This document shows positions 1 to 37,049 of a stretch of DNA of 64,000 nt, in pieces. The number at the start of each line of letters is the position of its first letter. Positions within the stretch are counted from its first letter, which is position 1. A model generated the notes under the pieces. The model searched no databases, was not told the DNA's origin, and saw nothing but the letters and a program-made list of their open reading frames with translations. The DNA is from Anaerolineaceae bacterium. Its GTDB lineage: Bacteria; Chloroflexota; Anaerolineae; Anaerolineales; Anaerolineaceae. The stretch spans positions 62,001 to 126,000 of the forward strand of contig JAJUGU010000003.1 of NCBI GenBank assembly GCA_029265815.1. Reading direction: 5' to 3'. The translations under genes were made by a program, and so were the position numbers.

Positions 1-489
1 AACGTCGCCAACAGCGTGGCTGTGCTGAGCGGCGCTCCACTGACCGTGCGCCGCTTTCTGGTTGATCTGCCGTTGAGAGCGCTTAAAGCCAGTCTTCCTG
101 ATTTTGCCGGTGATTTCGTGCAGCTCTTCACCAGCAGCGCGATCACAGACGAGATGTTTGATCAATGGATTCAAGGTTACCCTGCGATTTTTGAAGAATT
201 GAAAGCAGCGGGCACCGCACCTGTCAGCCTGCAGTTCTTCCGCCTCGGTTATTATGAAAAGGCAATCCGCGCTCTCTACCCTGACCACCCGGCAGCGGCA
301 ATCTGGATCCTGTTAGACACATTCACATGGGCTGCATCTGCTCTGCCCAAGAGCGGTTTATCCTATAAGAACTGGCAGGCTTTATGCCGTGAGCTCGAAC
401 TGGATAGCCGCCACATGCCCGCTCGCCTTGAGGCACTCGATAACCTGCTAGACACGGTTGAAGAAACCGTCGAACGCCTTCAGAAGTAA
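1..489 (+). CDS. Hypothetical protein, 3' part (open at the left edge)
   Basis: The frame is open from the first base of the window and stops with TAA at 487-489, so the gene very likely starts upstream. A GTG at 16 is in frame but has no ribosome binding site in view. The visible 162 residues look soluble and mostly helical, with a Leu/Ala-rich C-terminal segment, no cysteine cluster and no recognisable catalytic motif. I do not recognise the family. It reads toward the DnaA-box-rich intergenic region and has no neighbour in the same transcript on its right side. Confidence 0.6.
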   Translation, partial: NVANSVAVLSGAPLTVRRFLVDLPLRALKASLPDFAGDFVQLFTSSAITDEMFDQWIQGYPAIFEELKAAGTAPVSLQFFRLGYYEKAIRALYPDHPAAAIWILLDTFTWAASALPKSGLSYKNWQALCRELELDSRHMPARLEALDNLLDTVEETVERLQK

Positions 490-529: not shown

Positions 530-821
530 TCTGTGGATAAATCCTGGTTTTCTGTGGATAAATGGGAATAAATTTACCTTCAATTCATTGATTTTTATGG
601 AATAACTCTGTGGATAAAACCAGGTTTTATCCCAATTTATTCCCGAAATTTACAGGATTAAGGAAAATTTAAGATTTGAAATTTCCAAACCTTTTTTCCA
701 CAAACTATTCACAGTAATGAAAGACTCTGAGTGGTAATTAATACCCCCTATATACAGGGTATTATCTTAATAATACCCTCATATATATGCTAAAAATCAA
801 GTCCTTCACTTTTTCTCCACA
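530..821. other. DnaA-box cluster in AT-rich intergenic region (candidate oriC or DnaA-regulated site)
   Basis: The 487 bp gap between the first gene and spoVS carries three perfect DnaA boxes TGTGGATAA (complement of TTATCCACA) in one orientation at 532-540, 553-561 and 609-617. The first two share the longer context TCTGTGGATAAAT. Two one-mismatch boxes lie in the other orientation: TTTTCCACA at 694-702 and TTCTCCACA at 813-821. The segment from about 640 to 900 is very AT-rich, as expected of an unwinding element, and holds an imperfect inverted repeat (AATACCC/GGGTATT, about 739-763). dnaA is not in the window, so origin function is inferred. Confidence 0.6.
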
Positions 822-991
822 TATCCCCAACCCCTACGGCGACTACTATATTGATATACATAAAAATTACCAGTTAATAATATTAAACTATGATTGATTT
901 TGGTATGCGAAACATGTATATTTTAATTACATAAAAGTACCCCCATGGCTTCACAAATCCTGGCATCATTATCCAGGTGGGAGATGTGGTT

Positions 992-1255
992 GTGGACGTC
1001 ATAAAGGTAAAAGCCAATTCTCGTACTGCCGCAGTAGCGGGAGCCATTGCTGGAGTCATGCGCGAACACAAGCATGCAGATATTCAAGCAATTGGTGCTG
1101 GAGCTGTGAATCAGGCCATTAAGGCACTGGTTTTGGCTAAAGGATATCTTGCTGAAGACGGGATCGAAATCATCTGTATTCCAGAGTTTGTCGACGTAGA
1201 AATTGATGGAAAAGTACGTACGGCGATCAAACTTGTTGTCGATCCCAGGTCATGA
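992..1255 (+). CDS. spoVS: Stage V sporulation protein S (SpoVS) family, Alba-like
   Basis: This 87-residue protein matches SpoVS along its length. It has the AVAGAIAGVMREH segment, the central IQAIGAGAVNQAIKAL block, and the C-terminal IDGKVRTAIKLVVDPR. The family has an Alba-like fold and is thought to bind nucleic acid; in Bacillus it affects spore coat and septum steps, but it is widespread in non-sporulating bacteria. I chose the GTG at 992 over in-frame GTGs at 977 and 986 because AGGTGGGAG (975-983) then sits about 8 nt upstream and the length fits the family (about 86). It lies directly downstream of the DnaA-box cluster. No other sporulation gene is visible. Confidence 0.9.
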   Translation: MDVIKVKANSRTAAVAGAIAGVMREHKHADIQAIGAGAVNQAIKALVLAKGYLAEDGIEIICIPEFVDVEIDGKVRTAIKLVVDPRS

Positions 1256-1308: not shown

Positions 1309-1965
1309 TTAAACGCGCTCTGCTTCTTCACGGGTAAAGATGACCTCTTCTTTACCCGTTAATTTTTCCTCGATCTTAGTAATAATCAGGTTCAGGTGAC
1401 GCGGATGAGCTACGTAATCGAGGTCATCCGCCGGAACGGTCAATACCGGGCACAACGTGAAGTGGTGAATCCAGTTCTCGTAAAGTTGATTTAGTCTCTC
1501 CAGGTATTCCGGTGCGATGCTGCGTTCGTAATCACGGTTGCGCAGCTCGATGCGTTTGAGCAGCGTGGGCACCGAGGCGCGCAGGTAGATCATCAGATCG
1601 GGAGGCGGGAGGTATTCAACAAGCGTGCGGTAGAGAGAGCGATAGGTGGCGTAATCGCGTTCGCTGAGGTTACCCTGCAAAAAAAGGTTATAGGCAAAGA
1701 CTTCGGCGTCTTCATAGATGCTGCGGTCCTGGATCACCGAACCTGGCGCACGCACGAGCTGCTGGTGGATACGCAGACGGTGGGTGAGAAAAAAGATCTG
1801 CGAATGAAAGCTCCAGGTGTGCATGTCCTTATAGAAATCCGCCAGGTATGGATTCTCAGTCACGGGCTCGTAAAAGGGCTGACAGGAAAGCCTCTCGCAG
1901 ATCATCTCCACCAGTGTGGACTTACCGACGCCGATGTTTCCTGCAACCGCTATAAACTTTTTCAT
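1309..1965 (-). CDS. Deoxynucleoside kinase (dNK/dGK/dAK family)
   Basis: The 218-residue protein phosphorylates deoxynucleosides for salvage in the cytosol. The P-loop GNIGVGKS lies at residues 9-16. The family's substrate-binding EP..NPYL segment follows (about 33-42), then the DRS motif at about 80-82. An arginine-rich lid region (RIELRNRDYERSI) lies near 138-150. Length and motif order fit the family, but substrate preference (dGuo, dAdo or dCyd) cannot be read from the sequence. It is followed on the minus strand only by the short gap to spoVS and has no operon partner. The ferredoxin gene upstream has its own terminator. Confidence 0.88.
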   Translation of the reverse strand: MKKFIAVAGNIGVGKSTLVEMICERLSCQPFYEPVTENPYLADFYKDMHTWSFHSQIFFLTHRLRIHQQLVRAPGSVIQDRSIYEDAEVFAYNLFLQGNLSERDYATYRSLYRTLVEYLPPPDLMIYLRASVPTLLKRIELRNRDYERSIAPEYLERLNQLYENWIHHFTLCPVLTVPADDLDYVAHPRHLNLIITKIEEKLTGKEEVIFTREEAERV

Positions 1966-35231: not shown

Positions 35232-35247
35232 TGTTTCATGTGAAACA
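35232..35247. promoter_or_regulatory. parS-like site 1
   Basis: TGTTTCATGTGAAACA differs by one central base from the ParB/Spo0J site TGTTNCACGTGAAACA. It extends to an 18-bp inverted repeat (35231-35248). It lies between the slipin and ABC ATPase genes. An identical 16-mer is at 37034. Confidence 0.75.
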
Positions 35248-37033: not shown

Positions 37034-37049
37034 TGTTTCATGTGAAACA
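37034..37049. promoter_or_regulatory. parS-like site 2
   Basis: An identical TGTTTCATGTGAAACA, four bases after the permease stop. The two sites bracket the ABC operon, 1.8 kb apart. Confidence 0.75.

Follow-up and report, generated by a model that had tools for sequence, protein, structure and literature searches.

A predicted replication origin apart from dnaA, with a putative NrdR-type operator, in an Anaerolineaceae bacterium

The AT-rich gap between a nucleotidyltransferase-like gene (NTase) and spoVS in the genome considered here is, judging from its sequence, almost certainly the chromosomal replication origin (oriC, 490-976), and it contains a second conserved element, overlooked in the original prediction of the origin, which is a predicted NrdR-type operator. 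Taken as a whole, the observations are best explained by an oriC that is separate from dnaA and contains an NrdR operator of its own, by which the dATP/ATP ratio may gate initiation, a reading that we consider probable.

Architecture and uniqueness of the DnaA-box cluster

The window, that is, the whole 64-kb stretch analysed (G000:C17:62001-126000), belongs to a genome of 2.58 Mb in 26 contigs with a completeness of 99.4%. Its features, numbered from the first position of the window, are as follows.

1 to 489, plus strand: NTase gene, 3' part (full length C17:61497-62489)
490 to 976, no strand: proposed oriC, AT-rich intergenic gap, with the cumulative G-C minimum of the contig at 974
532 to 540, plus strand: DnaA box 1, exact (TGTGGATAA), aligned with relatives
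553 to 561, plus strand: DnaA box 2, exact, 21 bp after box 1 with a 12-bp spacer
609 to 617, plus strand: DnaA box 3, exact match
694 to 702, minus strand: one-mismatch DnaA box (TGTGGAAAA), opposite orientation
744 to 761, no strand: NrdR-type box (CCCCCTATATACAGGGTA), 12.8 bits, stronger member of a tandem
775 to 792, no strand: partner NrdR-type box (ACCCTCATATATATGCTA), 6.3 bits, exactly 31 bp on
813 to 821, minus strand: one-mismatch DnaA box (TGTGGAGAA), opposite orientation
840 to 939, no strand: most AT-rich 100 bp of the gap, 79% A+T, candidate unwinding element
977 to 1255, plus strand: spoVS (PF04232, 1.4e-34)
1309 to 1965, minus strand: deoxynucleoside kinase (PF01712 match)
35232 to 35247, no strand: parS-like site (TGTTTCATGTGAAACA), consensus match
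37034 to 37049, no strand: second parS-like site (TGTTTCATGTGAAACA), consensus match

As originally predicted, three exact DnaA boxes occur on one strand within 86 bp (532, 553 and 609), two one-mismatch boxes follow on the opposite strand (694 and 813), and all of them lie in an AT-rich gap of 487 bp, which extends from the upstream stop codon to the spoVS start (68% A+T); the claim that the window holds no further exact box was also borne out across the 64 kb. Since the window contains only slightly more boxes with at most one mismatch than expected (23 versus 14), the signal resides in the cluster. Throughout the 2.58-Mb genome, exact TTATCCACA occurs 36 times, compared to 13 times for the reversed control, and the trio is the sole exact-box cluster, with 1.2 kb separating the boxes of the next closest pair; the chance expectation of three boxes within 86 bp anywhere at that density is about 3e-5. 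The box counting proposed as a check of the origin thus returned no second exact-box cluster anywhere in the genome. Furthermore, the most AT-rich 400-bp segment of the 64 kb is found at 537-936, and among the 100-bp segments taken at 1-base steps over the same 64 kb, six exceed the best of the gap (79% at 840-939).

The NTase-like protein encoded beside the gap has no Pfam or NCBIfam match, and its gene, which is uncharacterised, owes the name "nucleotidyltransferase-like" to our reading of the sequence; it is the usual upstream neighbour of the origin across related loci. A second deoxynucleoside kinase gene (C17:60849-61484) lies ahead of it, so that the origin is flanked by both kinases (PF01712 E-values of 1.6e-52 and 6.4e-37) in the order kinase, NTase, oriC, spoVS, kinase. 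Of 80 related loci, 78 likewise have the first kinase ahead of the NTase, the remaining two being truncated there by a contig edge. In the search for RNA families in the window, only tRNAs passed the gathering thresholds. Elsewhere in the window, two identical parS-like sites, called with the parS consensus, are located 1.8 kb apart, one of them, by eye, where an ABC-transporter-like gene has its start codon.

Nucleotide skew and the distance from dnaA

The GC skew, which had been put forward as a check, was computed for C17:1-286000 (of 320 kb) and for 295 of the 297 kb of contig C2, that is, for two of the 26 contigs, and its cumulative minimum on C17 falls at C17:62974, corresponding to position 974, inside the same gap. 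The best change point of the skew on C17 is at 63 kb, with mean values of -0.062 to the left and +0.037 to the right, and the points within 50 counts of the minimum span 62,012 to 71,504, which gives a resolution of several kb. The keto skew (GT-AC) of this contig has its minimum 35 kb away, at C17:97899, which speaks against the origin reading. The prediction that the origin would not lie beside dnaA agrees with the location of dnaA on C2, at 269-270 kb (TIGR00362), where scattered one-mismatch boxes occur with no exact cluster; no skew switch is present near dnaA, the skew of C2 being negative in all 20 bins (295 kb). Adjacency to dnaA, a common but not a defining property of oriC, is therefore not a property of the proposed oriC.

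A corresponding picture was obtained from the complete chromosome of Pelolinea submarina, sampled at 20 places (396.6 kb of 3.52 Mb): the skew is negative in the six samples up to 326.6 kb, positive in the nine between 326.6 kb and 1.92 Mb, and negative again in the last five, which start at 2.10 Mb, with three half-samples of opposite sign. The skew thus reverts between 1.92 and 2.10 Mb, about opposite the box cluster, and its local minimum (327,025) lies by the exact boxes at 326,618-326,694, in the corresponding locus. The signs are mixed along the contig of the complete genome G466 (family f12).

Since DnaA can also be titrated by boxes that lie away from its gene, the gap might be a titration or regulatory site of the datA type rather than an origin. 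We regard this as highly improbable, considering that the skew changes sign at this locus in two genomes and that the contig carrying dnaA itself has no skew switch. The reading of the gap as oriC is strongly supported because the uniqueness of the cluster, the position of the GC-skew minimum and the conservation among relatives all point to this location.

Conservation of the origin among Anaerolineales

A close same-strand pair of DnaA boxes was found in 99 of the 151 genomes of the order and in none with the reversed control, and the 12-bp spacer, present in 87 of 104 distinct pairs, is the commonest in relatives. Scanning named genomes with an NTase profile yielded 80 loci, the best of 91 encoding a relative, among which Bellilinea, Anaerolinea, Levilinea, Ornatilinea, Longilinea, Thermanaerothrix and Pelolinea are represented. 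Where at least 400 bp follow the NTase match (74 assessable loci), at least two exact boxes occur within 600 bp after it in 61 loci and at least one in 64; in terms of boxes, 207 exact copies lie after the NTase versus 0 in the 115,653 bp before and inside it. In Longilinea, one of the 13 loci below two boxes, the cluster is found 4 kb further along, close to spoVS.

Within the family of the genome considered here, the pair is present in 14 of 17 drawn genomes, at the NTase/kinase locus in 10 of these 14 and elsewhere in G105, G120, G134 and G141. Across the order, the pair lies within 1 kb of dnaA in 17 of the 99 genomes (families f2, f3, f4, f10, f11 and f15; by eye), and in the four f4 genomes with the pair, dnaA, the boxes and an NTase homologue (24-27% identical) are found together within 5 kb. 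The simplest inference from these arrangements would be that dnaA and oriC formerly shared one locus and were separated in the family of our genome, the NTase staying with oriC.

Two further arrangements were noticed. In locus L161 (G003 C117), two DnaA-box arrays about 2 kb apart flank dnaA, with an NTase homologue nearby, which makes a bipartite origin possible there. In G027 (C9:182758/211952) and G053 (C15:82984/112357), a second box pair occurs about 29 kb from the NTase-side array.

The predicted NrdR-type tandem of the gap

When the origins were aligned, a palindrome became apparent whose distance to the boxes is constant and whose sequence is often CCCCCATATATGGGGG. Single matches to it prove little, since CCCCCNNATNNGGGGG occurs in 56 of 151 genomes and the reversed control is also frequent, being present in 22 genomes, in several of them many times, among the matches listed. 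At least five copies among the listed matches lie about 320-375 bp upstream of dnaA (G013, G053, G113, G078 and G108). As for 40 further listed places that we examined, 18 lie 23-112 bp upstream of nrdR and 22 do not; in two of the latter, L182 and L195, a single exact DnaA box is found at a distance of 84-86 bp. In five of the 22 places without nrdR, namely L174, L178, L186, L200 and L204, the palindrome follows the 3' end of a tRNA gene, with integrase-like genes nearby in L178 and L186, and in L199 no tRNA gene precedes it; after tRNA genes it is possibly a terminator or an attachment element. The reading of the palindrome as a covarying hairpin or terminator was dropped as the main one, since the palindrome fronts the nrdR-ribonucleotide reductase (RNR) genes.

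A scoring matrix was derived from 30 nrdR promoters, chosen by the NrdR protein alone as the 30 best of 139 matching genomes, and its consensus is ACCCCCATATATGGGGGT. In 22 of these 30 promoters, two sites sum to at least 15 bits at a spacing of 31 bp, compared to at most 5 at each other spacing from 26 to 36 bp. The first matrix had been seeded with a consensus typed after both origins and promoters had been seen; when the seeds were random, the learned consensus was identical and the results differed little, and thus the typed seed did not make them.

The palindromes at 744-761 and 775-792 match the operator in front of the nrdR-RNR operon of the same genome, where a copy lies between ftsZ and nrdR (TIGR00244, 1.8e-49), followed by the RNR gene (PF02867, 1.7e-138); hence, the motif does front the RNR genes of this genome. 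Within the gap, the tandem follows the box array and precedes the segment richest in A+T. With a sum of 19.1 bits, it is the best 31-bp tandem of C17 (286 kb; next 9.8), and the best on C2 (295 kb) reaches 8.8, at the site upstream of the genome's own dnaA, the ranking covering the 581 kb scanned on these two contigs. On C17, it still ranks first when the genome's own nrdR promoter is left out of the matrix (19.0, next 10.3) and with the unseeded matrix (18.2, next 7.2); as a single site, 744 ranks second on C17. The genome's own nrdR promoter, on C3, scores above the tandem of the window (25.7 plus 6.0 bits), and an 18.6-bit site (C2:270667-270684) lies 265 bp before the matched start of dnaA. 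A 26.7-bit NrdR-type site was also noticed at C2:62917-62934 (L151 2917-2934), where the nearby open reading frames appear phage-like by eye.

NrdR operators are reported to consist of two 16-bp palindromes separated by 15-16 bp (PMC12176259). The tandem of the window has this two-palindrome layout, with a weak second box and an imperfect first one. The same source reports that mutation of box 1 of Escherichia coli nrdAB abolished binding and that its pair with box 2 binds at 113 nM, and the box 1 probe that it gives contains ATACCCCCTATATA, identical to positions 741-754 of the window (PMC12176259).

As to the protein, the reference DNA-contact residues of NrdR are D15, R17, R26, R28 and R37 in Streptomyces coelicolor; the NrdR of our genome has D15, R26 and R28, with T at 17 and R at 36, not 37, in unaligned numbering. 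The T in place of R17, together with the presence of the palindrome at places without nrdR, could suggest that a protein other than NrdR recognises a palindrome common to nrdR-RNR, dnaA and oriC. This appears improbable to us, given that 31-bp tandem palindromes directly before nrdR-RNR reproduce the NrdR operator layout and that box 1 of E. coli nrdAB shares ATACCCCCTATATA (PMC12176259). Binding of NrdR itself at the origin is, on the strength of the motif, a likely prediction.

Predicted NrdR sites at the origins of relatives

Sites of at least 15 bits occur in 28 of 55 NTase-locus origins versus 2 of 1793 control windows. Lowering the threshold to 12 bits, we found them in 53 of 93 distinct Anaerolineales arrays (box spacer of 10-13 bp) versus 9 of 992 control windows (50 versus 9 with the unseeded matrix), the other 40 arrays having no site at that threshold. 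Relative to box 1, the centres upstream lie at -46 to -48 (12 sites), -56 to -58 (4) and -68 (1), and those downstream lie at 82-83 (4), 92-94 (19), 103-105 (22) and 133 (1). No centre falls between -45 and 81 (one, at -39, with the unseeded matrix), a range that is partly occupied by the boxes. A looser third group at 211-285 includes the tandem of our genome, at +221 rather than at the common +93 or +104, and the site of Pelolinea (+217); the boxes of G466 carry sites at about -46, +93 and +263. The offsets are therefore mostly fixed and step by one helical turn, with the qualification that the relatives are not independent and that the best offset period changes when the two sides are pooled, which is why the Rayleigh p-values of the offsets were not read as probabilities. 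Since the sequences are related, we place the weight on the quantised offsets and on the recurrence in several families.

Tandem sums of at least 15 bits occur at a spacing of 30 bp in 31 of 97 arrays, at 28 and at 31-34 bp in 10-17, at 35-36 bp in 7, at 29 bp in 3 and at 24-27 or 37-40 bp in 1-3, so that the peak is at 30 bp at the relatives' origins versus 31 bp at promoters.

The neighbouring genes offer another explanation, namely that the locus is an ordinary oriC apart from dnaA and that the palindrome is a transcriptional NrdR operator or a terminator of genes such as spoVS or a deoxynucleoside kinase, with no role in initiation. In agreement with it, spoVS follows 216 bp downstream in the window, the locus has deoxynucleoside kinase genes on both sides, 21 of 27 loci without a site also lack spoVS there, and the palindrome elsewhere follows tRNA genes. 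We nevertheless hold this explanation to be unlikely: no SpoVS was found downstream at 10 of the 28 loci with a strong site, of which L083 is incomplete; families f9, f14, f10 and f12 keep the site-to-box distance despite different neighbour genes, and in G049 the origin and its site lie at the 3' end of dnaA; in Longilinea, the boxes and SpoVS are 4 kb from the NTase and the site is still at +104 from box 1; and, measured from the DnaA boxes, the offsets group at intervals of one helical turn. The loci without spoVS and the other families also weakened the narrower idea of a spoVS promoter site.

The element is not universal. Among the arrays of other families, L224 and L225 have no site and L228 has a weak one only, and the Brevefilum-like and g6 origins (our own grouping) mostly have no NrdR element. 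A composite pattern of box and palindrome, searched in 400 genomes of the phylum, matched 8 of 36 of the same order, 0 of 19 of other orders of the same class and 5 of 345 others, with 2 of 400 for the reversed control, and our own genome does not match it. Because the composite form is at chance outside the order and the element is absent from some origins, we consider it a lineage feature; the exact composite form looks specific to the order in these sequences, and the element was perhaps lost within the family of our genome.

Proposed mechanism and significance

It is possible to hypothesize that DnaA-ATP would load on the same-strand array (532-617) and open AT-rich DNA of the gap, from which two forks would leave. 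At high dATP, NrdR would bend and occupy the origin, holding back DnaA assembly or unwinding, and it would leave the origin when dATP falls relative to ATP. The supply of dNTPs, the supply of initiator and the firing of the origin might in this way be set together, because such sites also front nrdR-RNR and dnaA. That NrdR would exert direct negative control on initiation has, in our estimation, an even chance. Slightly favoured is the wider proposal that the NrdR of Anaerolineales is a direct origin-binding regulator, with an operator that is common to the RNR operon and the dnaA promoter and would be built into oriC at fixed helical steps from the DnaA boxes, so that the dNTP pool would gate initiation at the origin itself.

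In Caulobacter, raised dNTPs delay initiation by a mechanism that the report leaves undefined, and deletion of nrdR gives hyper-spreading, read there as a longer swarmer phase (PMC12186491). Since the deletion gives the same phenotype, the delay seems not to need NrdR. The sign of the brake proposed here would agree with the delay.

The main mechanistic rival of the brake is a helper role, in which bending by NrdR between the array and the AT-rich DNA would favour unwinding. The sharp DNA bend at each NrdR box, reported in PMC12176259, and the sites on both sides of the box array in several loci are consistent with such a role. It is nonetheless rather unlikely in our view, as the role described there for NrdR is repression (PMC12176259) and as raised dNTPs delay initiation in Caulobacter (PMC12186491), though apparently with no need of NrdR. 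An origin with predicted sites for a dATP sensor, placed in several families at fixed distances from the DnaA boxes, is a concrete and directly testable candidate, in one bacterial group, for a link from nucleotide supply to initiation.

Moreover, the locus supplies an origin to a group that is large and for the most part uncultured; it is also a case of oriC apart from dnaA while another neighbour stays with oriC, and it offers a reference point for reading the growth rates of Anaerolineae from metagenomes. In the open-licence literature, searched through titles and the openings of abstracts, we found no description of NrdR sites in an origin or of this Anaerolineae origin.

Comparison with known systems

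The oriC of bacteria such as Bacillus subtilis and E. coli contains a clustered array of DnaA boxes. The locus proposed here resembles these origins in its clustered same-strand boxes, in the AT-rich neighbouring DNA and in its position at a skew switch point, and it differs from them in lying away from dnaA, in having the NTase, spoVS and deoxynucleoside kinases as neighbours and in the predicted NrdR-type operator.

In Bacillus, Spo0A is an origin-binding brake. The corresponding brake in Caulobacter is CtrA (PMC12186491). The candidate regulator is like CtrA and Spo0A in having predicted sites inside oriC and at other genes; different from both, it would sense dATP/ATP, and its action at the origin is a proposed one.

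The tandem of the window shares with the NrdR boxes of E. coli nrdAB, nrdHIEF and nrdDG the 31 bp from centre to centre of the palindromes and, with box 1 of nrdAB, the ATACCCCCTATATA core (PMC12176259). Unlike those boxes, which belong to RNR operons, it lies in a predicted origin with no adjoining RNR gene, and the sites of the relatives stand at fixed offsets to DnaA boxes. The nrdAB promoter of E. coli is itself bound by both DnaA and NrdR, according to the same source (PMC12176259), and the gap likewise combines DnaA and predicted NrdR sites within one regulatory region. However, whereas those of the nrdAB promoter serve the control of RNR transcription, the sites of the window lie at the skew switch of the chromosome.
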